Of a DNA stretch of 64,000 nt, positions 3,990 to 52,776 are shown piece after piece. Below the pieces are notes generated by a model. It did not search any database and had not been told where the DNA came from. It was given only the letters and a program-made list of their open reading frames with translations. The stretch spans positions 496,001 to 560,000 of the forward strand of contig NZ_JADGIK010000001.1 of assembly GCF_015234135.1 (NCBI RefSeq). Direction: 5' to 3'. The DNA is from Faecalibacter rhinopitheci. GTDB taxonomy: Bacteria; Bacteroidota; Bacteroidia; Flavobacteriales; Weeksellaceae. Position 1 is the stretch's first letter, and each line of letters begins with the position of its first letter. A program made the translations under genes and the position numbers.

Positions 3990-5021
3990 ATGGAATTAGG
4001 AATCGGAATGTTTGGAGATGTTCGCATCAACGAAAAAACAGGATATATACAAACTGCTCAACAACGTCTTTCTGAAATTATTGAAGAAGTAAAATTAATG
4101 GATGAGGTTGGTTTAGATTTCTTCGGAATTGGAGAACATCACCGTCCGGACTATGCCGTTTCTTCTCCAGAAATTATATTAGCTGCAGCAGCAAGTGTAA
4201 CTAAAAACATCAAATTAGGAAGCGCAGTTTCTGTCATCAGTTCTGCTGATCCTGTGAAATTATTTCAAGATTTTTCGAGTGTAGATAATTTATCAAATGG
4301 ACGTGCGGAGATTATGGCCGGACGTGGTTCTTTTATCGAATCGTTTCCATTATACGGTTATGATCTAGCCGATTATGAAGCTTTATTTGATGAGAAATTA
4401 AAATTATTATTGACTTTAAATAAAAATGAAGTTGTGAATTGGAGAGGAAATTTTAGAATGCCTATCCAAAAACAAACAATTTATCCTCGACCAGTACAAC
4501 CAGAAATCCCAATTTGGGTAGCTGTTGGTGGAACAACATCTTCTGTAATTCGTGCCGGAAAATTAGGTTTACCAATTATGTTTGCGATTATTGGTGGAGA
4601 TCCTGCGAATTTTGTTCCTCTGTTCGAAGTGTACAAACAAGCGTACGAAGACAACGGGCACGATTTGGCTAAAATACAAGTTGGTGTACACATGCATTCA
4701 TTTTTTGGAGAAGACAATCAGCAAGTCGCAGACGAATATTTCCCAATCTATGGTGCGCAAATGGATCGTATCGGTAAATCAAGAAATTGGCCTCCATTTA
4801 CACGTCCACAGTTTGATCATGGCCGAGGAACAAATGGACATTTGATTGTTGGAGATGCCGAATTAGCCGTAGATCGTATTTTAAAATTTCATGAATTATT
4901 TGGGTTAACACGATTCTCAGCACACATGGATGTTGGTGCGCCAAGCCATAAAGATATGATGAAGTCGATTGAAATTTTTGGAACTAAAATCGCGCCAAAT
5001 GTTAAGAAATCATTAAGCTAA
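3990..5021 (+). CDS. Luciferase-like (LLM class) flavin-dependent monooxygenase
   Basis: A 343-residue TIM-barrel oxidoreductase of the bacterial luciferase superfamily, which uses reduced flavin and O2 on a small organic substrate. Family signatures include FFGIGEHHRPDYAVSSPE near residues 43-62, IKLGSAVSVISSADP, the NGRAEIMAGRG block, and IPIWVAVGG followed by AGKLGLPIMFAIIGG. The substrate is unknown; members near this branch are annotated only as LLM-class oxidoreductases. It is monocistronic, with its own -7 box and a terminator at 5030. Confidence 0.88.
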   Translation: MELGIGMFGDVRINEKTGYIQTAQQRLSEIIEEVKLMDEVGLDFFGIGEHHRPDYAVSSPEIILAAAASVTKNIKLGSAVSVISSADPVKLFQDFSSVDNLSNGRAEIMAGRGSFIESFPLYGYDLADYEALFDEKLKLLLTLNKNEVVNWRGNFRMPIQKQTIYPRPVQPEIPIWVAVGGTTSSVIRAGKLGLPIMFAIIGGDPANFVPLFEVYKQAYEDNGHDLAKIQVGVHMHSFFGEDNQQVADEYFPIYGAQMDRIGKSRNWPPFTRPQFDHGRGTNGHLIVGDAELAVDRILKFHELFGLTRFSAHMDVGAPSHKDMMKSIEIFGTKIAPNVKKSLS

Positions 5022-5088: not shown

Positions 5089-5772
5089 ATGAAAAAATTT
5101 ATTTGTACACTTACTGCCATCCTTTGTCTAACACCGCTCTTAAAAGCTCAAAATTCTGATTTAAGAAATTGGGGCGTTTTAAATTTAAATCAAAAAATAT
5201 CGGATCGTTTTAGCTTATCTTCTGATTACCAATACCGTACATTTGAAGATATTGATCAACTGAATCAGTTGTTGTTGCGTGGTGGGATTGGTTATCACTT
5301 AACCGAAAATAACAATACTATTTTATTGGGATATGCTTATGTGTTAACTCGTGTGCCCGCAGGTGAAGACGATTATCGATCTTTTGGAGAAAATCGTTTA
5401 TACCAGCAATTTAATACTAAACATGCTATTCAACGCGTAGGATTAAATCATCGTTTTCGTTTTGAAGAACGCTTAATGAACGACGATATTTTCTTTCGTT
5501 TTCGTTATCAATTAACGGCTACTATACCGCTAAACAAACTTACATTGCAACAAGATGCTTGGTATTTAAAAGCTTCTAACGAATTGTTTTTAAACGCCAT
5601 CAAACAAAATAATTTTGATCGTAACCGATTGCATTTGATGGTTGGCTATGTAATTTCGCCAAAATTGACAATAGAAACTGGTTACATGAAACAACATATA
5701 CAACATGCACAGACGCATCATTTCCAATTGGGCATTACGGTTAGTAATCCAATTGCAAAAAAGCCAAGTTAA
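5089..5772 (+). CDS. DUF2490 outer-membrane beta-barrel protein
   Basis: A 227-residue protein with a signal peptide (MKKFICTLTAILCLTPLLKAQ). The mature part shows the DUF2490 pattern: LRNWGVLNLNQKIS at the N-terminus, then alternating amphipathic strands such as FSLSSDYQYRTFE, HRVGLNHRFRFEERL-like segments and FRYQLTATIPL, ending in a strand closed by HFQLGITV. The family is predicted to be a small outer-membrane barrel of unknown role. The stop codon lies inside the terminator hairpin at 5757-5788. Confidence 0.85.
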   Translation: MKKFICTLTAILCLTPLLKAQNSDLRNWGVLNLNQKISDRFSLSSDYQYRTFEDIDQLNQLLLRGGIGYHLTENNNTILLGYAYVLTRVPAGEDDYRSFGENRLYQQFNTKHAIQRVGLNHRFRFEERLMNDDIFFRFRYQLTATIPLNKLTLQQDAWYLKASNELFLNAIKQNNFDRNRLHLMVGYVISPKLTIETGYMKQHIQHAQTHHFQLGITVSNPIAKKPS

Positions 5773-8113: not shown

Positions 8114-9808
8114 TTAAGATTCACAAGAAGAACAAGAAACTAAATTTGTGATTAGTTCTTTAGATACTGATTGTGAACGTTGGTAGTATAAAGTTTTTAA
8201 GCCTAATTGCCATGCTTCGATCATTAAACGGTTTACTTCTTTTACGGGTAAATCCGAAGGAATATTTAAGTTTAACGATTGAGATTGATCAATAAATTTC
8301 TGACGAATTGCTGCTTGCTGAACGATTTCTAATTGCGAAAGTTCTTTGAATGTTTTGAATACATCTTTTTCTTCTTTTGACAATTCAGTCATATGTTGTA
8401 CTGACCCACCATTCAACATAATTCCACGCCAAACATCTTCATTATCTAAACCTTTCTCTTGCAATAACCTCGTTAGGTACTTATTCTTACGCATAAAGTT
8501 ACCTTTCGATAAACCAGCTTTGTAATAGTTAGAAGCAAACGGCTCAATTCCTGGTGATGTTTGCCCTAAGATAGCAGAAGAAGATGTTGTAGGCGCAATA
8601 GCTAATGTTGTTGTATTACGACGACCGTAACCTTTTAGTACTTCTGGCTCACCATAAATACGTGCTAATTCTTCTGTTGCACGATCAGCTTTATCTTGAA
8701 TGTATTTAAAAATTTCTGTTGTGCGTAATTTCGCTTCCATTCCTTCAAAAGGGATCATATAACGTTGTAAATATGAATGCCATCCTAATACACCTAATCC
8801 TAATGCTCGGTGACGTTTAGCGAAACGATTAGCGTTTGATAAATAGTAGTTTCCTTCTGTTTTTTCAATAAATTCTTGTAATACAGCGTCTAAAAAGAAA
8901 ATAGCTAACTTAACAGCTTCTGTATCTTTCCATTCGTCATATAGTTCTAAATTCATGGAAGAAAGACAACAAATAAATGATTCGTCTTCTGATGAAGGCA
9001 ACATAATCTCTGAACAAAGATTAGATGCATTGATACGCATGCCTAAATCTTTGTATACTTGTGGTTTGTTTTTATTTACGTTATCTGAGAAGAAAATATA
9101 TGGTAAACCTTTTTCTTGTCGAGATTCTAAAACTTTCGCCCAAATTTCACGTTTATCACGATCTCCATCTACCATTTCTTGCATCCAATAATCTGGTACA
9201 CAAACTCCATAGAATAAATTTTGGATTGAACTACCAATCGATTTAATCTTTAAGAATTCCTCAATATCTGGATGATCAATATCTAAATAAGCCGCAAAAG
9301 CACCTCGTCTTGTAGAACCTTGGCTTACTACATTCATAGCAGAATTAAATAATTCCATAAAAGAAACAGCACCACTACTCTTTCCGTTATCTGTAATTGC
9401 TGCACCACGCTCGCGTAATTCTCCGAAGTACCCAGAAGTACCTCCTCCAATTTTTGTTTGCATGATTACTTCACCTAGTTTCTGAGTAATACCCTCGATG
9501 CTATCCGGAATGTGTACATTAAAACAAGAAATAGGTAAACCTCTTTCTGTTCCCATGTTTGCCCAAATCGGTGAAGATAAACTCATCCAACCTCTTTCAA
9601 TCATTTCTTTAAAAGAATTCTGTAGTTCTGGTTTTCCTAATCTTTTAGAAGCTGCTGCTGTAATACGATCAATTGCTCCTTCAACTGTTTCACCTTTTAA
9701 AAGGTATCCACGATTAAGAATTTGTTCGGATTCAGAATTTTTCCACCAAAGTTTTGGCGCTTCTCCTTCAAAAAAAGTAAAATCTTCGTTGTGTGGTGTA
9801 TTTTCCAT
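8114..9808 (-). CDS. nrdA: Ribonucleoside-diphosphate reductase, large (alpha) subunit
   Basis: A 564-residue class I RNR catalytic subunit. It reduces NDPs to dNDPs using a radical from the small subunit. Catalytic residues are all visible: C95 and C280 (redox pair), N263-L-C265-S-E267 (thiyl radical site), tyrosine pair Y541-Y542 for radical transfer, and the C-terminal CxxC (C559, C562) that receives electrons. The protein starts right at the barrel (LNRGYLLKGETVEGAIDRI), so the N-terminal ATP cone of E. coli NrdA is absent and dATP overall-activity control through it is impossible. It lies 75 bp downstream of nrdB in the same direction. Confidence 0.95.
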   Translation of the reverse strand: MENTPHNEDFTFFEGEAPKLWWKNSESEQILNRGYLLKGETVEGAIDRITAAASKRLGKPELQNSFKEMIERGWMSLSSPIWANMGTERGLPISCFNVHIPDSIEGITQKLGEVIMQTKIGGGTSGYFGELRERGAAITDNGKSSGAVSFMELFNSAMNVVSQGSTRRGAFAAYLDIDHPDIEEFLKIKSIGSSIQNLFYGVCVPDYWMQEMVDGDRDKREIWAKVLESRQEKGLPYIFFSDNVNKNKPQVYKDLGMRINASNLCSEIMLPSSEDESFICCLSSMNLELYDEWKDTEAVKLAIFFLDAVLQEFIEKTEGNYYLSNANRFAKRHRALGLGVLGWHSYLQRYMIPFEGMEAKLRTTEIFKYIQDKADRATEELARIYGEPEVLKGYGRRNTTTLAIAPTTSSSAILGQTSPGIEPFASNYYKAGLSKGNFMRKNKYLTRLLQEKGLDNEDVWRGIMLNGGSVQHMTELSKEEKDVFKTFKELSQLEIVQQAAIRQKFIDQSQSLNLNIPSDLPVKEVNRLMIEAWQLGLKTLYYQRSQSVSKELITNLVSCSSCES

Positions 9809-9883
9809 GATTGTAGGATTAAAATAAGTTATATATTATAATTTTGGATTCGTTTAATTTTTCTTAAGCATTTTTTATAAAGC

Positions 9884-10843
9884 TTAAAATAAGTCATCTG
9901 CTGAAATACTTTTGTCGTGTTTTGTGTAGTCCACAGGTCTTTTGGCAAAGAAATCGTCTAATGTACTTGCAAATACTTCTTCCTCAAACCAAGCCATTGG
10001 TCTATATTGTTCTTGCGTAATATGAAAAACTTTTTTGTAACCAATCTTTTCAATTGCTTCGTCTAAGCGGTATTTCATGTAGTTTAATAAATCAATTTTT
10101 GAATAATGTTCTAATTCACCTTTTTCAAAAATCCAATCTAACATTAATTTCTCTTGTTCTATATAACCTGTTACTGCATTTTCTACCCAACTTTGGTCTA
10201 ATGATGGTGGTAATAAACCTTCTTCTTTAATCTTATTAATTAAATATATACCTGCATTAGCATGTATTTGCTCATCTACAGAAGTCCAAGCAATAATATT
10301 TGCAGTATTCTTCATCAATCCTTCGAAACGAGTAAATGATAAGATATTTGCAAATTTTGAGAATAATGAACTATCTTCAATAACCAACGCAAAAAATAAT
10401 AATTTTTCAACGATTGAAATTTCTGTATCTTTTAAAATTCCACTTACAAAGTTATTATAGCTTTTGAATACTGGATTTTCTAAAGCAATGCTAAACTCAT
10501 CAAGATATCCGTTCACTTCTAAGATTCGAGAATAAGCTTCACTATGTCTAAATTCGCTTTCTGCAAAAGTAGCTCCCAAACCATTTAATTCCGGCTTTGG
10601 GAAATAGTTATATAAATCTCCCCAAAAACCTTTTACACTTACTTCTATTTGTGCAATTGACAGAATTGATCTTTTATGAATTTCGCGTTTTACATCATCT
10701 AAATTAGCTCTGTAATCTTGTATATCTGAAGTAAAGTCAACTTCAGTATGCACCCAATAAGCTTTTTGGATAGCTTCCGTATAAGTTAAAACTTCAGGAT
10801 ATTCAAACGGTTTATAATTGATTCTCTTATCAAAAATAGACAT
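9884..10843 (-). CDS. nrdB: Ribonucleoside-diphosphate reductase, small (beta) subunit
   Basis: A 319-residue ferritin-like radical-generating subunit. Metal ligands read E67, E97 and H100, E156, E191 and H194; the radical tyrosine position is filled by Y104 (E-F-R-H-S-E-A-Y). The first ligand aligns with Asp84 of E. coli but is Glu here, so metal type (Fe or Mn) should not be assumed. The start is the ATG at 10841-10843 (MSIFDKRINYKPFEYPEV); the frame extends to a TTG at 10891, but that lies in a palindromic control region. It is the first gene of the nrdB-nrdA operon and has no ATP cone of its own. Confidence 0.94.
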   Translation of the reverse strand: MSIFDKRINYKPFEYPEVLTYTEAIQKAYWVHTEVDFTSDIQDYRANLDDVKREIHKRSILSIAQIEVSVKGFWGDLYNYFPKPELNGLGATFAESEFRHSEAYSRILEVNGYLDEFSIALENPVFKSYNNFVSGILKDTEISIVEKLLFFALVIEDSSLFSKFANILSFTRFEGLMKNTANIIAWTSVDEQIHANAGIYLINKIKEEGLLPPSLDQSWVENAVTGYIEQEKLMLDWIFEKGELEHYSKIDLLNYMKYRLDEAIEKIGYKKVFHITQEQYRPMAWFEEEVFASTLDDFFAKRPVDYTKHDKSISADDLF

Positions 10844-10883
10844 AATATAAAAGTATTTTTGGTTATTAGTATTAGATTTTTTT

Positions 10884-10901
10884 AAACTCAAATTTGAGTT
10901 T
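10884..10901. promoter_or_regulatory. 18-bp perfect palindrome upstream of nrdB
   Basis: AAACTCAAATTTGAGTTT reads identically on both strands and lies 40 bp before the nrdB start. A perfect 18-bp palindrome without a T-run is more like an operator than a terminator. It does not obviously match the NrdR box of other phyla. On the minus strand, TAAATTG preceded about 17 bp upstream by TTG (region 10920-10950) could be the promoter. Confidence 0.5.
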
Positions 10902-11174
10902 TTAATAGAATTCAGTCAATTTATAATATTGAATTTTATACAATCCTTTACTATAAAGGGTTTAACGATTTTGACTTTTTGAATCTCTATTTTCTCAAAT
11001 TTAGGATAACATTTTTCAAATAAAAATCCCAACGTATTAAAAAAACAAAAGGTTATCAACAAGTTGTTAATTAACTATAAAACAGTTATTTATATAAATA
11101 AAATCTCAATAACTTTTATTTAAATCTACATAATTTTTTATGTTAAAGTTTTAGAATTTATATATTTTATTCAT
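10902..11174. other. Intergenic control region of nrdB
   Basis: About 270 bp of AT-rich DNA between nrdB and the rny terminator. Apart from the possible promoter near 10920-10950 and a DnaA-box-like TTATCAACA at 11053-11061, I see no gene or RNA. Confidence 0.4.
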
Positions 11175-11206
11175 AAAAAAAGGATTAACAAACGTTAATC
11201 CTTTTC
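11175..11206 (-). terminator. Terminator of rny
   Basis: A 12-bp perfect stem (11178-11189 with 11194-11205), 4-nt loop, and a T-run on the minus strand. Confidence 0.85.
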
Positions 11207-11233
11207 TATAAATATATCCTAATAAATAGTTTT

Positions 11234-12805
11234 CTATCTTGCTATATTCACTGCTCTAGTCTCACGAATAACAGTTACACGAACTTGACCTGGATAAGTC
11301 ATTTCATTTTGAATTTTATCAGAAATCAAAAATGATAATTCAGCAGCTTTTGCATCATCAACTTTATCACTTTCTACAATTACACGTAATTCTCTTCCGG
11401 CTTGAATTGCATATGCTTTTTCTACACCATCAAAATTTAATGCCGTTGTTTCTAAATCTTTTAATCGTTGAATATAAGATTCTACAACTTGACGTCTAGC
11501 TCCTGGTCTAGCTCCCGAAATAGCATCGGCTACTTGGATAATAGGCGATAATAAAGATGTCATTTCAATTTCATCATGGTGAGCTCCGATGGCGTTAATT
11601 ACATCAGGATGTTCTCCATATTTTTCTGCCCATTGCATTCCTAGGATTGCGTGCGGTAATTCAGATTCTTCTTCTGGAACTTTTCCTATATCATGTAATA
11701 AACCTGCACGTTTTGCTAATTTAGGATTTAATCCTAATTCTGCAGCTAATGTACCTGCTAAATGAGCAACCTCACGAGAGTGTTGTAATAAGTTTTGTCC
11801 GTAAGAAGAACGGTATTTCATTCGTCCTACAATTTTTACTAAATCTTTGTGCAGTCCGTGAATTCCTAAATCTAAGATTGTTTTTTTACCAATCTCAATA
11901 ATTTCATCTTCAATTTGTTTTGTTGTTTTAGCAACTACTTCCTCTATACGAGCTGGATGAATACGTCCATCAGTTACTAAACGGTGTAATGATAAACGAG
12001 CAATTTCGCGTCGTACAGGATCAAAACAAGATAAGATAATAGCTTCTGGTGTATCATCAACAATAATTTCAACTCCAGTAGCAGCTTCAATTGCACGTAT
12101 GTTACGACCTTCTCGACCAATTATACGACCTTTAATCTCATCAGATTCAATGTTGAAAACTGAAACTGAATTTTCAATAGCTTGCTCAGTTCCGATACGC
12201 TGAATTGCAGAAACTACAATTTTACGCGCTTCATTCTTTGCATTTAATTCTGCATCTTCCATAATTTCTTGGATATGCGCTTGTGCTTTTGTTTTAGCTT
12301 CATCTTTTAAAACTTCAATCAACTCAGCACGAGCTTCTTCAGCAGAAAAATTAGAGATTTTTTCCAAGACCTCAACTTGTTTTTTATGCATCGTATCTAC
12401 ATCTTTTTGTTTGATATTTAATTTGTCGATACGTGATTGTAAATTTCCTCTTTCAGACTTAATATTGTCTTTTTGTTTTTGAATTTCGGCAAGATCGTGT
12501 TTTATTCGATCTTCTCTATCTTTCACTTTAAGTTCAGTATCTGAAACCTTTCTTTCACGTTGATTAATTAACTCTTCGTGCTTTGTTTTTAATTCAAGAA
12601 ATTTCTCTTTTGCTTGTAAGATTTTTTCTTTTTTAATGGCTTCACCTTCCTTTTCAGCTTCATTAATTAAGTTATTAGCTTTGCGAGTTGCTTCGTCTAT
12701 CAGCTCTTGATTTTGTTTATCAACTGATTTTTTAGACAGAAAATACCCCACTACCGCGCCTATAATTAATGTAACAAGTGCAAGAATAATAGTAATTGGA
12801 TCCAT
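11234..12805 (-). CDS. rny: Ribonuclease Y
   Basis: A 523-residue membrane-anchored endoribonuclease that initiates mRNA decay. Order of parts: one N-terminal transmembrane helix ([18 protein letters not shown]), a long charged coiled coil to about residue 190, a KH RNA-binding domain ([19 protein letters not shown]), and an HD phosphohydrolase domain with [10 protein letters not shown] and LLHDIGK. Length and order match the family. It follows zapA and the 6S RNA in the same direction, a neighbourhood that looks conserved in Flavobacteriia. Confidence 0.96.
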
Positions 12806-29736: not shown

Positions 29737-29766
29737 AAAAAAGCCAGCTTAATGCTGGCTTTTTTA
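29737..29766. terminator. Bidirectional terminator
   Basis: A 12-bp perfect stem (29737-29748 with 29754-29765) with A- and T-runs, between the rightward membrane protein gene and the leftward WYL regulator. Confidence 0.9.
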
Positions 29767-30789
29767 TTGTTCATATTTTTCGTGCGCTTTACACAGACGT
29801 GCTTTAATTACTTTTTTCAATAAGCGTGGCGCAATAATTTCAATTTGTTCTCCAAACCCCAGAATTTCTCTTTCTAATTCAAAATTATGAATCACTTCCA
29901 TCACAAATATTACTTCTGTTTCATCTTCAGCGATTACTTTTTGTGTAGCGTGAATAGGCTTGGTAATCACATAATCTGCGAATTTCTTATCCACTTTAAA
30001 AACGACACGTTGCTCGCGTTGATTGGGTGATTTTGTTACACCTAAAACATTATCGTAATAATGTTCTAAATCCAATTCGTGGGCTTCTATAAAAGGTTCA
30101 TTGGCCAATTCATAAAATTCCACTATTCGGTCCAGCGCCATGGTGACAAATTCTTTCTTCTTTCGCGATTTGCAAAACAAAAACCAACGGTTGCGGTATT
30201 CCTTCAACAGATACGGGTAATATACAGCTTGCTTGGGCGCTTGCGCTTTTCTTAAGTTATTGAACGATTGATAAGCAATCAATAAAGGTTGTTTTTTCAC
30301 GATGGCTTGGTACAACCGATTCAGATGCTCTAATCCTTTTAATAATGGGTTATCTTCAAATTGAATATAAGAAATCTGTTGTTGATTTTGTTTGGATAAA
30401 TTATTTTCTAAACGAATGATCATTTCATTCATATCCTCAAAATAATTGAAACCATTCAATTGCTTCATTACCGAAATCACTTCTTTCATTTTATCAAGAT
30501 CAGCTGCTGAAATAGGCGATTGATTGATGCTAAAATCTTCGGTTTCGTACGTGTAATATTTTTTATCCACCACAACTATTGGTGCATTATATCCCAATTT
30601 ATCACTGCGCATGACTTGGATATCACCTTGGATTGTTCGTTTCGAAACCCCCGACGTAATTCCTTCGTATTCGTATAAGGCTTCCGAAACTTTTTCGATT
30701 AAGTCTTCTAATGTCCATTTTCTATACCGATTTTGGAGGCATTTATCAATGGTTTGGTAACGGATTAATGCAATTTTATTGGTTGCCAT
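29764..30789 (-). CDS. WYL-domain transcriptional regulator of the RNA-repair locus
   Basis: A 341-residue regulator. Residues 1-80 form a winged HTH (LIRYQTIDKCLQ...LEDLIEKVSEALYEYEG...SKRTIQGDIQVMRSDK). Residues of about 155-235 are the WYL domain (LYQAIVKKQPLLIAYQSF...YYPYLLKEYRNRWFLFCKS), which binds nucleic acids or nucleotide-like ligands, and a WCX domain follows. It is divergent from the slipin-rtcB operon, the place taken by RtcR in E. coli, so it is the likely controller. Leucine codons are often TTG, unlike the flanks. Confidence 0.92.
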   Translation of the reverse strand: MATNKIALIRYQTIDKCLQNRYRKWTLEDLIEKVSEALYEYEGITSGVSKRTIQGDIQVMRSDKLGYNAPIVVVDKKYYTYETEDFSINQSPISAADLDKMKEVISVMKQLNGFNYFEDMNEMIIRLENNLSKQNQQQISYIQFEDNPLLKGLEHLNRLYQAIVKKQPLLIAYQSFNNLRKAQAPKQAVYYPYLLKEYRNRWFLFCKSRKKKEFVTMALDRIVEFYELANEPFIEAHELDLEHYYDNVLGVTKSPNQREQRVVFKVDKKFADYVITKPIHATQKVIAEDETEVIFVMEVIHNFELEREILGFGEQIEIIAPRLLKKVIKARLCKAHEKYEQ

Positions 30790-30949: not shown

Positions 30950-30978
30950 ATGTACCGCATCGTCTTGCTCCAACTTTG

Positions 30979-31046
30979 TATCAGGTTAAACGACCTACTG
31001 ATTTTAAGCCGTCCTTGTCTTGTGTTTCGGTATAGCACGGAAGTAG
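30979..31046 (+). other. Structured 5' segment ahead of the tRNA-like RNA
   Basis: Directly after the CAACTTTG element come two possible folds: a hairpin ATCAGGT...ACC...TGAT (30980-31002), or a longer arm pairing CTACT (30995-30999) with AGTAG (31042-31046) and CCGT (31009-31012) with ACGG (31037-31040). They exclude each other in part. It may be the 5' domain of the same transcript or a separate leader element. Confidence 0.4.
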
Positions 31047-31069
31047 AACATGTTTCATTTCTTCTATTC

Positions 31070-31200
31070 TGACGATTAAAATCACCTATTGATGTGTCGT
31101 AGGTTCGAATCCTACTTTCAGGAAACTGAAATAGCTCAGTGGGGTTAGAGCAATCAAGGAAGCAGATTTCCCATCTGTCATTCTCGCCCGCAAGGGCCCA
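31070..31200 (+). ncRNA. Permuted tRNA-like, Y-type RNA of the RtcB locus
   Basis: A complete tRNA core in circularly permuted order. T-arm: 5-bp stem 31099-31103/31111-31115 with loop TTCGAAT. Acceptor-like stem: TTTCAG (31116-31121) and CTGAAA (31126-31131) joined by a GAAA tetraloop. Then T8 and A9 equivalents (31132-31133), and a D-arm GCTC/GAGC (31134-31137/31148-31151) with loop AGTGGGGTTA containing the GG pair. One A (position 26) follows. The 5-nt GTGTC before the T-arm matches a variable loop with G46 and C48. In place of an anticodon arm, the two flanks pair (31070-31093 with 31153-31180), with bulges. A GCCC-GCAA-GGGC hairpin closes the 3' side. This is the expected architecture of YrlA-type bacterial Y RNAs, known tRNA mimics; transcript ends are estimates. 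Confidence 0.8.
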
Positions 31201-31445
31201 TTTTGAAAAAAGCTGAAACAAGTTTTCTTTATGTCTTTTGATTTTTCGATGAGGATTTAAAAAGGATATTCAAAAACGGGTAATCGACCTGGATGTATTT
31301 CTTGTTAAGGATGATTTGGAGGACATGATTTATTCTTCGATGGATAAACATCCCTCTAAAGAGAAGCCTTTACAACAATAGGTTCCGTCGAGTCGAAGGA
31401 TCACCTTTCAGCTTTTGATTATAACAACCTTAAAAAAAAAGAACG
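31201..31445 (+). other. Leader between the tRNA-like RNA and slipin gene
   Basis: 245 bp without a complete gene. One frame is open from 31253 to a TAG at 31379-31381 and reads like real protein (...VIDLDVFLVKDDLEDMIYSS...), but it is preceded by a TGA and has no early start codon, so it may be the remnant of a lost gene. Otherwise it acts as the 5' region of the slipin-rtcB operon. Confidence 0.4.
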
Positions 31446-32537
31446 ATGAAAAAAATTACGATTAACAACCAAGAAATTGGACTAGTCATTCAAGCAAACG
31501 AAGTACAAAACATTTATACAAAAGGAGCATATTGGAACTTCTTTGGACCATCGATTGAAAAATTTCAGTTGAATGAAATCATTGATCCTAAATATCATTC
31601 CTTATTTATCGCCGATGAAAAGATTCGTCCATTGGTGGAATGCATTGAAGTAGGACATCAACAAGTATTGATGCTCTATAAAAACAATCAGTATTACAAA
31701 TGTTTTTACAATACCAATGTCATGCTTTGGAAAGAGGCCACACAATTGAAAGCTCGACTTTATGATTTGAGTGATTCGAATCAAATCCAAGCATTATCGC
31801 TCCAAGAAATTGAACAATTGAAAAAAGTGGGTGCCATTAAAGTTATTTCGGTACAACCGTTTTACGAAGCATTATTATTTAAGGACAATCAATTCGAAAC
31901 CGTATTAACAGCTGGAGAATATCCCTACTTTCATAATACGACTAAAATTGCTGTGGTCAGTTTTGATCAACGTCCACAGACCCTTGAAATTTTAGGACAA
32001 GAAATCTTAACGAAAGACAAAGCCCAAATCCGCATCAATTTTATGGTGAACTATCGTATTACTGATGTCTTAAAAGCTTATCAATCGAACAAAGATTTTG
32101 AAAAAATGATTTATCAATCGATTCAATTGGGATTACGTGAGTTCATTGGTAATTTAACGTTGGATGAATTGATGACGGATAAAAATTCGGTCACAGATTA
32201 TATCCTCCACAAATATCAAAACCAATTTGAAGCCATCGGTTTACAATTGGTCGATGCTGGAATAAAAGATATTATTCTTCCAGGAGAAATTCGTGAGATC
32301 ATGAATCGTGTTTTAGTCGCAGAAAAAACCGCTCAAGCCAATTCGATTATGCGACGTGAAGAAACTGCTTCAACCAGAAGTTTACTGAACACCGCTAAAT
32401 TGATGGAAGAAAATGCGACACTTTGGAAATTGAAAGAGATGGAATACATCGAGAAAATAGCTGATAAAGTGGGCGAAATTAGTATTTCTGGAGGATCAAA
32501 TGTCTTAAATGAATTGAAAACCATGTTTACCAAATGA
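31446..32537 (+). CDS. Slipin-family (SPFH/Band 7) protein
   Basis: A 363-residue protein of the SPFH superfamily. The N-terminal half is a divergent, soluble extension (EIGLVIQANEVQNIYTKGAYWNFFG...); the SPFH domain lies at about 140-300 (AEYPYFH..., VSFDQRPQTLEILGQEILTKDKAQIRINFMVNYRITD), followed by an Ala/Glu coiled coil (RVLVAEKTAQANSIMRREETASTRSLLNTAKLMEEN). There is no N-terminal transmembrane helix, unlike ordinary slipins. This variant is known as a neighbour of rtcB. Its stop overlaps the next start (ATGA), so translation is coupled. Confidence 0.9.
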   Translation: MKKITINNQEIGLVIQANEVQNIYTKGAYWNFFGPSIEKFQLNEIIDPKYHSLFIADEKIRPLVECIEVGHQQVLMLYKNNQYYKCFYNTNVMLWKEATQLKARLYDLSDSNQIQALSLQEIEQLKKVGAIKVISVQPFYEALLFKDNQFETVLTAGEYPYFHNTTKIAVVSFDQRPQTLEILGQEILTKDKAQIRINFMVNYRITDVLKAYQSNKDFEKMIYQSIQLGLREFIGNLTLDELMTDKNSVTDYILHKYQNQFEAIGLQLVDAGIKDIILPGEIREIMNRVLVAEKTAQANSIMRREETASTRSLLNTAKLMEENATLWKLKEMEYIEKIADKVGEISISGGSNVLNELKTMFTK

Positions 32538-33340
32538 AAAAGCAAATCCTTGAAAAGCTAAGAGAAGCTGAATTCAACTATAAAATTTCAATCTTATTTG
32601 CGGTAGAATCTGGGAGCCGCGCTTGGGGCTTTCCTTCTCCCGATAGCGATTATGATGTGCGTTTTATCTATAAACGAAACTTGAAAGATTATCTCCGCAT
32701 TTCACATGTTTCCGATTTTATTGATGTCGAATGCAATGCGATTTATGATATCAAAGGTTGGGATATTGAGAAAGCATTATACTTGACACGTCAGTCCAAT
32801 GCGAGTCTGTATGAATATCTTCAATCTCCGATTCATTATATTCATCATCCTGATTTTGAAAATGAGTTGAAAGCCTTGATTTGGGCACAATTTCAACCCC
32901 AAAAATTAACGGCGCATTATCTGGGCATTACCAAAAAGCGTTTAATGGCTTTAGAAGGAAATGATACGATGCCTTTAAAAAGTTTATTCTATGCTTTGCG
33001 TTCTGTCTTAGCTGCGCTCTGGATTCAAACCAACCAAACGGTTCCAACTATGGCTTTCCAAGCACTTTCGGTATTGATTCCAAACGAAATAAATATACGC
33101 ATCGAGGAATTGATCACGCTTAAAGCAACGGTCGGTGAAAAATATTGCGTTGAATATGATGAGGTCATCATGCATTGGATAAAGACGACTTATGATACAT
33201 TAAAGTTAACCTATAAAAATCTTCACATCTCAACCGTAGATACGGATGCTTTGGACGATTTTTTCTATCAAACCATCACCCATGAAATTAACGATAAAAG
33301 ATTTAAAGGAGAAGCACCTCATCTTACTGGAATGCATTAG
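32534..33340 (+). CDS. Nucleotidyltransferase (Pol-beta fold) 1 of RNA-repair operon
   Basis: A 268-residue protein of the YcgL-like nucleotidyltransferase group. The active-site block is complete: GSRAWGFPSPDSDYDVRFIY, giving the GS motif and the two catalytic Asp residues (DSDYD), with a third acidic position in DFIDVECNAI. Such enzymes add nucleotides to RNA ends or nucleotidylate proteins. In this operon, end processing or tailing of broken RNA before ligation by RtcB is the plausible role (inference). It overlaps slipin by 4 bp and the next gene by about 59 bp. Confidence 0.9.
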   Translation: MKKQILEKLREAEFNYKISILFAVESGSRAWGFPSPDSDYDVRFIYKRNLKDYLRISHVSDFIDVECNAIYDIKGWDIEKALYLTRQSNASLYEYLQSPIHYIHHPDFENELKALIWAQFQPQKLTAHYLGITKKRLMALEGNDTMPLKSLFYALRSVLAALWIQTNQTVPTMAFQALSVLIPNEINIRIEELITLKATVGEKYCVEYDEVIMHWIKTTYDTLKLTYKNLHISTVDTDALDDFFYQTITHEINDKRFKGEAPHLTGMH

Positions 33341-34349
33341 CGGCAGTAAAGCCTATAATTTAGATACGGCGAATTCAGATACGGATATTCGTGGGGTTTA
33401 TTATCTCCCTAAAACTCATTTTTATGGATTTAATGATCAACCGCAGATTAGCAATGAAACCAATGATGTAGTCTACTATGAAATTGGTCGATTTATTGAA
33501 TTACTCTTGAAAAATAATCCCGCTTGTTTAGAATTGTTGGCGACTCCAGAAGAATTTGTACTGTATCGTTCCGATCTTTTAAAGAAACTCTCTTACCAAG
33601 ATTTTATGACCGAAGAAGTGAAAGATACATTTATCGGTTATGCCTTGAGTCAAATTAAAAAAGCCAAAGGGTTGAATAAAAAATTCCTACAACCGATGGA
33701 TTCCAAACGAAAAACAGTTTTAGATTTTTGTTGGATTGTGGAAGCGGAAAAATCAATTTCATTGCTAGATTGGTTGGTTCATCATCATTACGACCAAGCT
33801 TTATGTGGTTTAAGTAAAATGGCGCATTCCAAAGAATTATATGCGCTTTATTACCATCCGAAGCATGGCTATCGAGGCATCATCAGAAATGATTCGAATA
33901 ATGATATTCGATTAAGTACCATTCCAAAACATGAAAAACCCATAGCATATATGCTTTTTCAAAAAGAAGAATATTCTGTGTATTGCAAAAAATATAAAGC
34001 CTATTGGGATTGGATGAAAATTCGCAATGAAGAACGGTACACCACGAATATGAACCACGGGAAAAATTATGACAGTAAAAATATGATGCATACCATTCGC
34101 TTATTGAAAGTCGTCAAAGAATTATTGGAAACAGGACAATTCAATGTATACCGCTCAAATGATCGTGAAGAATTATTAGCCATTAAAAATGGAAAGTATT
34201 CTTACGAAGAAGTCTTACAACAAGCGGAGCACTTGGTCGAAGATATTCATCATTTAAAAGAGACTATTCATTATCAATTCAAAAGAAATGATGCTCAAAT
34301 TGAACAATTTTTGATTGAACTAAGAACAAAACTTTATGAAAAAAACTGA
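33282..34349 (+). CDS. Nucleotidyltransferase (Pol-beta fold) 2 of RNA-repair operon
   Basis: A 355-residue second nucleotidyltransferase, only distantly like the first. Its active site reads ISGSKAYNLDTANSDTDIRGVYY (GS motif plus DTD). A large helical C-terminal domain follows. The start is taken at ATG 33282 (MKLTIKDLKEKHLILLECISG); an in-frame ATG at 33246 would lengthen the overlap with gene 1. It overlaps rtcB by 14 bp. Two different nucleotidyltransferases in one operon suggest different RNA-end substrates or a heteromer. Confidence 0.88.
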   Translation: MKLTIKDLKEKHLILLECISGSKAYNLDTANSDTDIRGVYYLPKTHFYGFNDQPQISNETNDVVYYEIGRFIELLLKNNPACLELLATPEEFVLYRSDLLKKLSYQDFMTEEVKDTFIGYALSQIKKAKGLNKKFLQPMDSKRKTVLDFCWIVEAEKSISLLDWLVHHHYDQALCGLSKMAHSKELYALYYHPKHGYRGIIRNDSNNDIRLSTIPKHEKPIAYMLFQKEEYSVYCKKYKAYWDWMKIRNEERYTTNMNHGKNYDSKNMMHTIRLLKVVKELLETGQFNVYRSNDREELLAIKNGKYSYEEVLQQAEHLVEDIHHLKETIHYQFKRNDAQIEQFLIELRTKLYEKN

Positions 34350-35775
34350 AACACAACATACACCAATTAACGGAAACGATTTAATCGCTTTAGGTTATCC
34401 AGAAAACGAAATTTTAGGTATTGCTTTAAAAATCAATAGAAAACGAAATGGCTATACCAAAACGGAAATGCTTAAAAAATATGCTGAAGTATTGGCACAT
34501 CCCGAAAACTTCCTCCATGATAAAGTTTTTAAAACCTTAGCGGAAGGATTTAGAGATGGGTTGCATTTACCAAAACACAACGAAATTCCGTTGAATGAAC
34601 ATCCTAATGCTTACCCGATCTACGGAAAAGAACAAATCGAAGAAGGTGCATTGAAACAAATGAATCTTGCGATGCAATTGCCTGTTACAGTGGCCGGCGC
34701 CTTAATGCCGGATGCGCATCAAGGGTATGGATTACCAATTGGAGGCGTTTTGGCGACTAAAAATGCCATTATTCCTTACGGAGTAGGTGTCGATATTGGA
34801 TGTCGAATGGCTTTATCGGTGTATCAATTACCGGCATCGTATTATGAACAACATCACGATACTTTAAAAGAAATCATCGTGAAAAACACCCAATTTGGGG
34901 CTGGTCAAGGCTTCCATGGGCAATACAAAGCTGACCATGCTATTTTAGAAGATCCAAAATTTGAAACAAATGCTTTGATCAAAAACTTGAAAGACAAAGC
35001 CTGGTCACAATTGGGTACATCGGGTGGAGGAAATCATTTTGTTGAATTTGGATTAATCGATTTTCAACAAGATGATCAAGAACTGAATATTCCAAAAGGA
35101 ACCTATTTGGCTTTATTGACCCATTCAGGATCACGAGGATTAGGCGCAACCATTGCAGGGCATTATACCAAAGTGGCGAAGCAAGTATGTTCCTTGCCTT
35201 ATAAAGCGCAAAACCTGGCTTATTTGGACTTGAATTCGGAAGAAGGCATCGAATATTGGTTAGCAATGAATTTGGCGGGAGAATACGCTTCGGCTTGTCA
35301 CGAAATTATCCATCAAAAAATTACAAAAGCTTTGGGAGCTGAAGTATTAGCACAAGTGGAAAATCACCATAATTTTGCATGGAAAGAAATGTATCAAAAC
35401 GAGGAAGTCATTGTGCACCGAAAAGGCGCAACACCAGCAGCAAAAGGTGTTTTAGGAATTATTCCAGGTTCGATGACTGCTCCCGGATTTTTGGTTCGAG
35501 GAAAAGGAGAAGAAAAATCAATTCAATCTGCTTCGCATGGTGCGGGCCGCCAAATGAGCCGAACACAAGCCATAAAGTCGTTGAACCAATCGGATATTAA
35601 CTCGTATCTGAATGATTTTGGCATTACTTTAATTGGGGCAGGAAAAGATGAGGCACCCATGGCCTATAAAGATATTTATGAAGTGATGAATGCGCAACAC
35701 GATTTGGTAGATGTTATCGCAACCTTTACCCCAAAGATGGTGAGGATGGCCGATGATGGTTCACGAGAAGATTAA
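34336..35775 (+). CDS. rtcB: RNA-splicing/repair ligase RtcB
   Basis: A 479-residue GTP- and Mn-dependent ligase that joins 2',3'-cyclic phosphate (3'-P) and 5'-OH RNA ends, for example cleaved tRNA. Signature residues: DAHQGYG (D126, H128), GVDIGCRM (D153, C156 metal ligands), GGGNHFVE (H234), HSGSRG (H263), ENHHNF (H344-H345), HRKGATPA (H361) and SASHGAGR with H401, the residue expected to be guanylylated. All are intact. It is the last gene of the operon; no RtcA cyclase or archease gene is present in the window. Confidence 0.96.
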   Translation: MKKTETQHTPINGNDLIALGYPENEILGIALKINRKRNGYTKTEMLKKYAEVLAHPENFLHDKVFKTLAEGFRDGLHLPKHNEIPLNEHPNAYPIYGKEQIEEGALKQMNLAMQLPVTVAGALMPDAHQGYGLPIGGVLATKNAIIPYGVGVDIGCRMALSVYQLPASYYEQHHDTLKEIIVKNTQFGAGQGFHGQYKADHAILEDPKFETNALIKNLKDKAWSQLGTSGGGNHFVEFGLIDFQQDDQELNIPKGTYLALLTHSGSRGLGATIAGHYTKVAKQVCSLPYKAQNLAYLDLNSEEGIEYWLAMNLAGEYASACHEIIHQKITKALGAEVLAQVENHHNFAWKEMYQNEEVIVHRKGATPAAKGVLGIIPGSMTAPGFLVRGKGEEKSIQSASHGAGRQMSRTQAIKSLNQSDINSYLNDFGITLIGAGKDEAPMAYKDIYEVMNAQHDLVDVIATFTPKMVRMADDGSRED

Positions 35776-52373: not shown

Positions 52374-52383
52374 ATAATTTTTG

Positions 52384-52455
52384 TAGACCCACAGGGATTC
52401 GAACCCCAACTAGCGGCACCAAAAACCGATGTGCTACCGTTACACCATGGGTCTA
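52384..52455 (-). tRNA. tRNA-Gln (TTG), copy 4 in transcription order
   Basis: A 72-nt cloverleaf on the minus strand: acceptor TAGACCC/GGGTCTA, D-arm GGTGTAACGGTAGCAC, anticodon arm CGGT-TTTTGGT-GCCG with anticodon TTG (reads CAA/CAG), T-arm GGGG-TTCGAAT-CCCT type. CCA is not encoded. Identical in sequence to three neighbouring copies. Confidence 0.95.
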
Positions 52456-52492
52456 ACTAAAAAAAGATTTATGAAAAATTAATAAAATTTTG

Positions 52493-52564
52493 TAGACCCA
52501 CAGGGATTCGAACCCCAACTAGCGGCACCAAAAACCGATGTGCTACCGTTACACCATGGGTCTA
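52493..52564 (-). tRNA. tRNA-Gln (TTG), copy 3 in transcription order
   Basis: Same 72-nt sequence as the other three copies, separated from the next by 37 bp of unrelated AT-rich spacer. Confidence 0.95.
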
Positions 52565-52601
52565 TATAATAATATTAATATTTCAACTGTTTAAAATTTT
52601 G

Positions 52602-52673
52602 TAGACCCACAGGGATTCGAACCCCAACTAGCGGCACCAAAAACCGATGTGCTACCGTTACACCATGGGTCTA
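52602..52673 (-). tRNA. tRNA-Gln (TTG), copy 2 in transcription order
   Basis: Same 72-nt sequence; 37-bp spacer to copy 3 and 31-bp spacer to copy 1. Confidence 0.95.
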
Positions 52674-52704
52674 TTATATATTTTAAACTCGCAAAAAAAA
52701 CTTG

Positions 52705-52776
52705 TAGACCCACAGGGATTCGAACCCCAACTAGCGGCACCAAAAACCGATGTGCTACCGTTACACCATGGGTCTA
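52705..52776 (-). tRNA. tRNA-Gln (TTG), copy 1 in transcription order
   Basis: First tRNA of the array, 16 bp after the -7 box of a perfect Bacteroidota promoter. Same 72-nt sequence as the other copies. Confidence 0.95.

Follow-up and report, generated by a model that had tools for sequence, protein, structure and literature searches.

Analysis of a 64,000-nucleotide stretch of the Faecalibacter rhinopitheci genome (GCF_015234135.1, contig NZ_JADGIK010000001.1, positions 496,001 to 560,000; hereafter the window) revealed a tRNA-like element directly upstream of a slipin gene, in an operon that also encodes the RNA ligase RtcB. The element holds the core of a tRNA in circularly permuted order. 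Its fold is maintained among Bacteroidota by compensatory evolution, it is linked to slipin and RtcB, its relatives carry anticodon loops that are tRNA-like in character and diverse in identity, and it has its core in common with the Ro60-linked YrlA RNAs. Based on these features, we propose that a non-coding RNA of about 440 nt partners a soluble slipin, and that the resulting particle would act as a bait or scaffold displaying a tRNA mimic to enzymes that cleave or repair tRNA. We assign this reading a probability of about one in two.

The permuted tRNA-like core and its conservation

The original prediction held that every core part of a tRNA is present in rotated order, and this was borne out at positions 31089-31157 of the plus strand, on which all features below lie unless stated otherwise. 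The order begins with the 5' strand of a closing helix, P1 (TTGAT, 31089-31093, at the place of tRNA positions 39-43), followed by GTGTC, the equivalent of the variable loop (31094-31098), and by the T-arm GTAGG-TTCGAAT-CCTAC (31099-31115), which the Rfam YrlA and tRNA matches also use. A covarying acceptor-stem equivalent of 6 bp (31116-31131) consists of TTTCAG (31116-31121), GAAA (31122-31125) and CTGAAA (31126-31131). Then come U8-A9 (31132-31133), the D-arm GCTC-AGTGGGGTTA-GAGC with GG within its loop (31134-31151), A26 (31152) and the 3' strand of P1 (ATCAA, 31153-31157, tRNA positions 27-31). These parts were assigned from an alignment of relatives, A2, and for P1 also from a test of its register.

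The Rfam YrlA model matched the window at 37.1 bits (E=1.7e-6 for 656 nt searched; gathering score 69), and the match to the core is far above chance. The test for a canonical tRNA failed, with 17.2 bits for the Rfam tRNA model against a gathering score of 29. An ARAGORN call of tRNA-Asn at 31036-31123 was rejected, as its T-arm is borrowed and the Rfam tRNA score there is below threshold. Minimum free energy folding of the single sequence gave a different best fold and missed the tRNA-like one because strands of the T-arm and D-arm mispair; the case therefore depends on comparative evidence.

Relatives were fetched with the slipin of the operon as query, which yielded 80 public Bacteroidota loci. 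A strict scanner required a T-arm, an acceptor hairpin, U8-R9 and a D-arm, thereby selecting for pairing in three helices, P1 not being required. At least one permuted core on the slipin strand, upstream of slipin, was detected in 72 of the 80 loci, and the same scanner found none on the opposite strand of those 72. The distance from core to slipin ranged between 356 and 750 nt, with a median of 390 nt from the last D-arm to the start codon. P1 provides an unbiased test, since the scanner places no pairing demand on it: all five positions were paired in 55 of 69 distinct loci, in one narrow register and with 17 different pairings, compared with a mean of 14.8 loci and a maximum of 24 in 1000 shuffles of the partners, although many loci are kin, so that such counts overstate independent events, and the shuffles preserve base composition but not kinship. 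Alignment A2 (63 distinct rows) kept 97.3% of its pair cells, and 17 of its 19 pairs change on both sides; its covariation score was 0.724, versus 0.240 when shuffled and at most 0.164 in slid controls. RNAalifold recovered the same 19 pairs from the alignment unaided. Both covariation in the terminal helix and conservation of the fold in homologous loci, which had been named beforehand as checks on the element, were thus found.

Tandem cores, anticodon arm and 3' domain

Most relatives outside the genus of the window carry two cores in tandem and a few carry three; one near relative (locus L033) has two. In the two-core relatives an anticodon arm lies directly 3' of the last D-arm. In a fixed register that corresponds exactly to tRNA positions 27-31/39-43, a stem formed in 33 of the 48 distinct two-core loci, versus 14.5 after shuffling (maximum 23 in 1000 shuffles). 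The loops of these 33 loci, which were not selected for any loop property, have U33 in 32 cases and a purine at position 37 in 30; in a wider set of loci U33 was found in 57 of 65. This U, the second base of the loop, is a feature specific to 7-nt loops (102 of 148, versus about 27-41% in other loop sizes). Read as anticodons, the loops correspond to many tRNAs and vary among species, and a single stem, CTACA/TGTAG, bears Lys, Arg, Asp, Asn and Leu-type loops. Of the 33 loops, 14 are identical to the anticodon loop of a real tRNA in the window's genome, against 2.2 with shuffled columns; when only distinct loops were counted, 6 of 21 were, against 0.9 expected. This host-only set was used because the ARAGORN loops of all loci, against which an exact-loop test was set aside, may contain the permuted RNAs themselves.

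In the window, the hairpin GCAGA(TTTCCCA)TCTGT (31162-31178) resembles an anticodon arm, with a 7-nt loop and U33, and is conserved in the genus. The earlier suggestion that the anticodon arm is replaced by an open helix was therefore correct in part: the closing helix does occupy the place of the anticodon stem, but a separate anticodon-arm hairpin is present as well.

Two further observations concern variants of the element. At an Empedobacter brevis locus (L034, reverse strand, about 4475-4645 of the reverse complement) the acceptor hairpin, the T-loop and a Lys-type anticodon arm are kept while the D-arm is seemingly lost; decay of the core may be under way in this lineage. At three loci (L082, 5436-5501; L105, 5629-5687; L074, 5437-5497), segments of the permuted RNA reach the Rfam tRNA threshold, so that public genomes probably list these RNAs wrongly as odd tRNAs.

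Conservation within the genus spans about 30968 to 31420. From a genus alignment (A3), its consensus fold and the upstream conservation, we propose a whole non-coding RNA of about 440 nt at 30980-31420, with approximate ends placed by conservation. An RNA of about 130 nt whose own ends form the helix, as first envisaged, does not agree with this extent, which is about three times longer and includes conserved sequence on both sides of the closing helix. Just upstream, the block CTCCAACTTTG (30968-30978), conserved in the genus loci, resembles the Bacteroidota -7 promoter element and is a candidate promoter for the RNA, of a type that a sigma-70 scan does not address. According to RNAalifold on A3, the hairpin GTAGAA...TTCTAT (31043-31067) precedes the tRNA-like core, and a GNRA hairpin, GCCC-GCAA-GGGC, is located at 31186-31197. 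Other lineages have an H-type pseudoknot 3' of the anticodon arm (30 of 77 loci, 4.4 expected); it was not found in the window, where the GNRA hairpin stands in its place.

The strands AAAAGCTGAAA (31208-31218) and TTTCAGCTTTT (31406-31416) pair over a long range to close the 3' domain, as identified by RNAalifold on A3 and by helix scoring; the latter strand has a U-rich end that is terminator-like in relatives. Other genera have a comparable long-range helix ending in a U-run, with a mean score of 15.4 versus 9.1 when shuffled; no canonical terminator was detected at the site of the 3' helix in the window. Within the domain lies a conserved motif, TTCCG...GGA (31383-31400), and in 56 of 72 loci TTCCG recurs in the stretch that separates the core from slipin, where 15% would be expected by chance.

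Linkage to slipin and comparison with known systems

The gene closest to the RNA encodes the slipin (SPFH/Band_7; 31446-32537; PF01145, E=1.9e-23, and AlphaFold models). It is followed by two RlaP nucleotidyltransferases (32534-33340, PF10127, E=8.7e-59; 33288-34349, PF10127, E=2.2e-21) and by RtcB (34336-35775; PF01139, E=1.8e-84), while a divergent WYL/WCX regulator (PF13280 and PF25583) occupies 29764-30789 on the minus strand. The predicted association with slipin and nucleotidyltransferases in the absence of Ro60 was upheld, with two RlaP genes in the operon and no TROVE match in the whole genome (a control genome was positive). PADLOC matched no defence model to slipin, RlaP or RtcB.

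Among the 80 slipin loci, RtcB was detected nearby at 50, WYL at 41 and RlaP at 17, and 28 had no match to any of the three, so the minimal cassette consists of the RNA and slipin. The original prediction placed the RNA in an RtcB operon, which is true of the window, but the minimal conserved partner is slipin and not RtcB. In a search that made no use of slipin, a covariance model of the core, R1, was applied to 297 Bacteroidota genomes; its calibration gives rough E-values. The best compact matches adjoin either slipin or Ro60, the latter mostly together with RtcB and with TROVE confirmed by Pfam. Weaker and longer matches were junctions of adjacent genuine tRNA genes, in which the 3' acceptor strand of the first gene base-pairs with the 5' acceptor strand of its neighbour; such junctions scored as permuted cores at L126 (997-1539), L116 (4242-4319) and G000:C34:57468-57565, for example, and are a source of false positives to be separated from the true elements. 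They also point to tandem tRNA genes as a possible origin of the permuted core.

One Chryseobacterium genome (L130) contains, within 7 kb, both a tandem permuted RNA linked to slipin and a Ro60 (TROVE) gene with permuted cores after it, the two elements lying at 5364-5437 and 8176-12181. In Flavobacterium, some cassettes of slipin and RNA adjoin a MoxR-vWA-beta-propeller (bpX4) gene (L107, 8542-9165) or an RNase_T exonuclease (L068, 7146-7688). No slipin homologue was confirmed on viral contigs. Outside Bacteroidota, deletion of TrcR in Anabaena derepresses the slipin gene alr0740 and rtcB, and a tRNA operon is TrcR-repressed as well (PMC10272220); slipin and RtcB are therefore co-regulated there too.

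The original prediction compared the element with YrlA-type tRNA mimics (Rfam RF02553, Ro60/Rsr-linked), and the comparison holds for the core but not for the class. Both RNAs have the permuted core of T-arm, acceptor hairpin and D-arm and a link to RtcB operons, and in Bacteroidota the single model R1 detects both the slipin-linked and the Ro60-linked forms, L130 seeming to have both. However, the slipin-linked RNA, with its ends inferred from conservation, measures about 440 nt against 90-150 for YrlA, its partner gene is slipin, Ro60 being absent from the window's genome, and it adds an anticodon arm, frequently a second or third core, a pseudoknot or hairpin and a large 3' domain. Its core is closed by a 5-bp helix, whereas YrlA has a long basal stem between the RNA ends. 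No slipin-linked locus tested reaches the Rfam YrlA gathering score of 69, in contrast to the Ro60-linked locus L218. By these tests the slipin-linked RNA is not a YrlA. Features of the YrlA class also include being a substrate of DusA and TruB and tethering PNPase. In Salmonella, the rsr-yrlBA-rtcBA operon is induced upon tRNA damage (PMC7790460).

Other known systems resemble the element in single respects. In 2016, Burroughs and Aravind (NAR) reportedly described a "novel tRNA-like molecule" linked to SPFH/Band-7 proteins in RNA-repair systems. That system is alike in linking a Band-7 protein, an RtcB-type ligase, nucleotidyltransferases and a tRNA-like RNA; the window, too, has a tRNA-like RNA next to an SPFH/Band-7 gene within an RtcB operon. 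The existence of the RNA is therefore probably not new; the parts that may be new are the permutation with tandem cores, the large 3' domain and anticodon loops that can be exchanged. Algae and archaea also have tRNA genes with their parts in circularly permuted order, but these yield working tRNAs, whereas the slipin-linked element sits within a larger RNA in a genome with tRNAs of its own; as this genome holds 87 tRNA matches, the permuted RNA is dispensable as a tRNA. With tmRNA it has in common a tRNA mimic within a larger RNA with pseudoknots; however, tmRNA is aminoacylated and has a tag reading frame, whereas the acceptor stem here is closed by a loop, and ARAGORN reported no tmRNA.

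Proposed function and alternative explanations

Pfam and structure matches identify the slipin as a relative of stomatin. It has no transmembrane stretch (highest 19-residue hydropathy 1.04), and AlphaFold predicts, with good confidence, that its N-terminal region of about 130 residues is beta-rich. SPFH proteins form rings or cages, as established for stomatin and HflK/C, and this soluble slipin would probably do the same and bind the RNA. In a Foldseek search with the whole model (31446-32534), major vault protein was among the SPFH matches, with unusually long alignments and low TM-scores. A vault-like slipin cage remains speculation, since the N-terminal region alone had no significant match in the PDB.

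In the proposed mechanism, the 5' half of the RNA would be the tRNA mimic, made up of the T-arm, the loop-closed acceptor stem, the D-arm, the helix at the anticodon-stem position and the anticodon-arm hairpin. In two-core relatives, the anticodon arm following the last D-arm would complete a tRNA shape whose opening lies at the variable loop. Since a loop closes its acceptor stem, the RNA is not expected to be chargeable, while the core retains the T- and D-arms, which are what tRNA-binding proteins see. Under tRNA-damage stress, the slipin-RNA particle might show the mimic to anticodon nucleases and to the RtcB and RlaP encoded beside it, and RtcB could reseal the RNA if its own anticodon loop were cut. 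Among the sensor, decoy and scaffold roles first suggested, the variation of the anticodon loops among species favours a bait or decoy. A particle attracting tRNA-cleaving or tRNA-repairing enzymes appears the most economical reading, because the loops copy real ones, RtcB and RlaP are encoded nearby, and the system is related to the Ro60-YrlA-RtcB operons, which in Salmonella respond to damaged tRNAs (PMC7790460). A narrower version, which we offer only tentatively, is a family of slipin-bound bait RNAs with one to three permuted cores, whose exchangeable loops match a tRNA attacked by the anticodon nucleases that threaten each species, the RNA sensing or absorbing the cut and RtcB resealing it.

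The element connects two RNA-protein systems, Ro60-Y RNA and slipin-RtcB, through a common permuted tRNA core, and the slipins of RNA repair thereby gain a candidate RNA partner. Loops that differ by species on a maintained fold provide a direct, testable prediction of the tRNAs attacked in each host; they also open a way to study the purpose of bacterial Y-type RNAs.

Several observations weigh against a bait for tRNA-acting enzymes. In fifteen of the 48 distinct two-core loci, no anticodon arm can be clearly made out where one would be expected. The loop in the window, TTTCCCA, has the would-be anticodon UCC and a C at position 37, is non-canonical or degenerate, and differs from the host Gly(UCC) loop CTTCCAA; given C37 and this mismatch, it may be decaying here. 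RtcB is present at just 50 of the 80 slipin loci, and repair is therefore not obligatory as a neighbouring function. Furthermore, Salmonella YrlA was left uncut by a nuclease that cut tRNAs (PMC7790460).

The main rival is a tether of the YrlA kind, in which slipin replaces Ro60, the core brings in PNPase or some other enzyme that binds tRNA or degrades RNA, the particle thus degrades or sorts damaged RNA, and the anticodon arm serves only to complete the tRNA shape. The permuted core is identical in kind to that of the Ro60-linked YrlA RNAs, which model R1 likewise detects, YrlA uses its tRNA-like domain to tether PNPase (review PMC8394870), and a slipin-only locus (L068) has the RNase_T exonuclease directly downstream; the tether leaves unexplained, however, why the loops copy those of many tRNAs and why there is a large 3' domain and a pseudoknot, and we consider it a serious but rather unlikely explanation. 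Next comes a cis-acting leader, with the element as the 5' untranslated region of the slipin(-rlaP-rtcB) mRNA and with cleavage or occupancy by tRNA-acting proteins switching expression of the operon. Its invariable position on the slipin strand just upstream of the gene, at the median of 390 nt, would suit such a role. At many loci, though, the long-range helix with its U-run before slipin suggests a transcript able to end ahead of the gene; in the window, no canonical terminator was found at the 3' helix site. On this evidence we regard a leader as improbable.

It had also been suggested that the RNA, or a cleavage product of it, is a ligand of the WYL regulator, whose divergent gene adjoins the RNA in the window. 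WYL was detected at just 41 of the 80 loci and the RNA persists without it, which makes this idea weak and very improbable. That decayed or tandem tRNA genes mimic the permuted fold by chance is hardly credible: weak permuted matches do arise where real tRNA genes stand side by side, through pairing of neighbouring acceptor strands, but no canonical tRNA at the locus reaches the Rfam threshold, and the strong covariation, including that of P1, and the conserved 3' domain contradict it. Elsewhere in the window, four tandem tRNA-Gln(TTG) genes are located at 52383-52775 on the minus strand.
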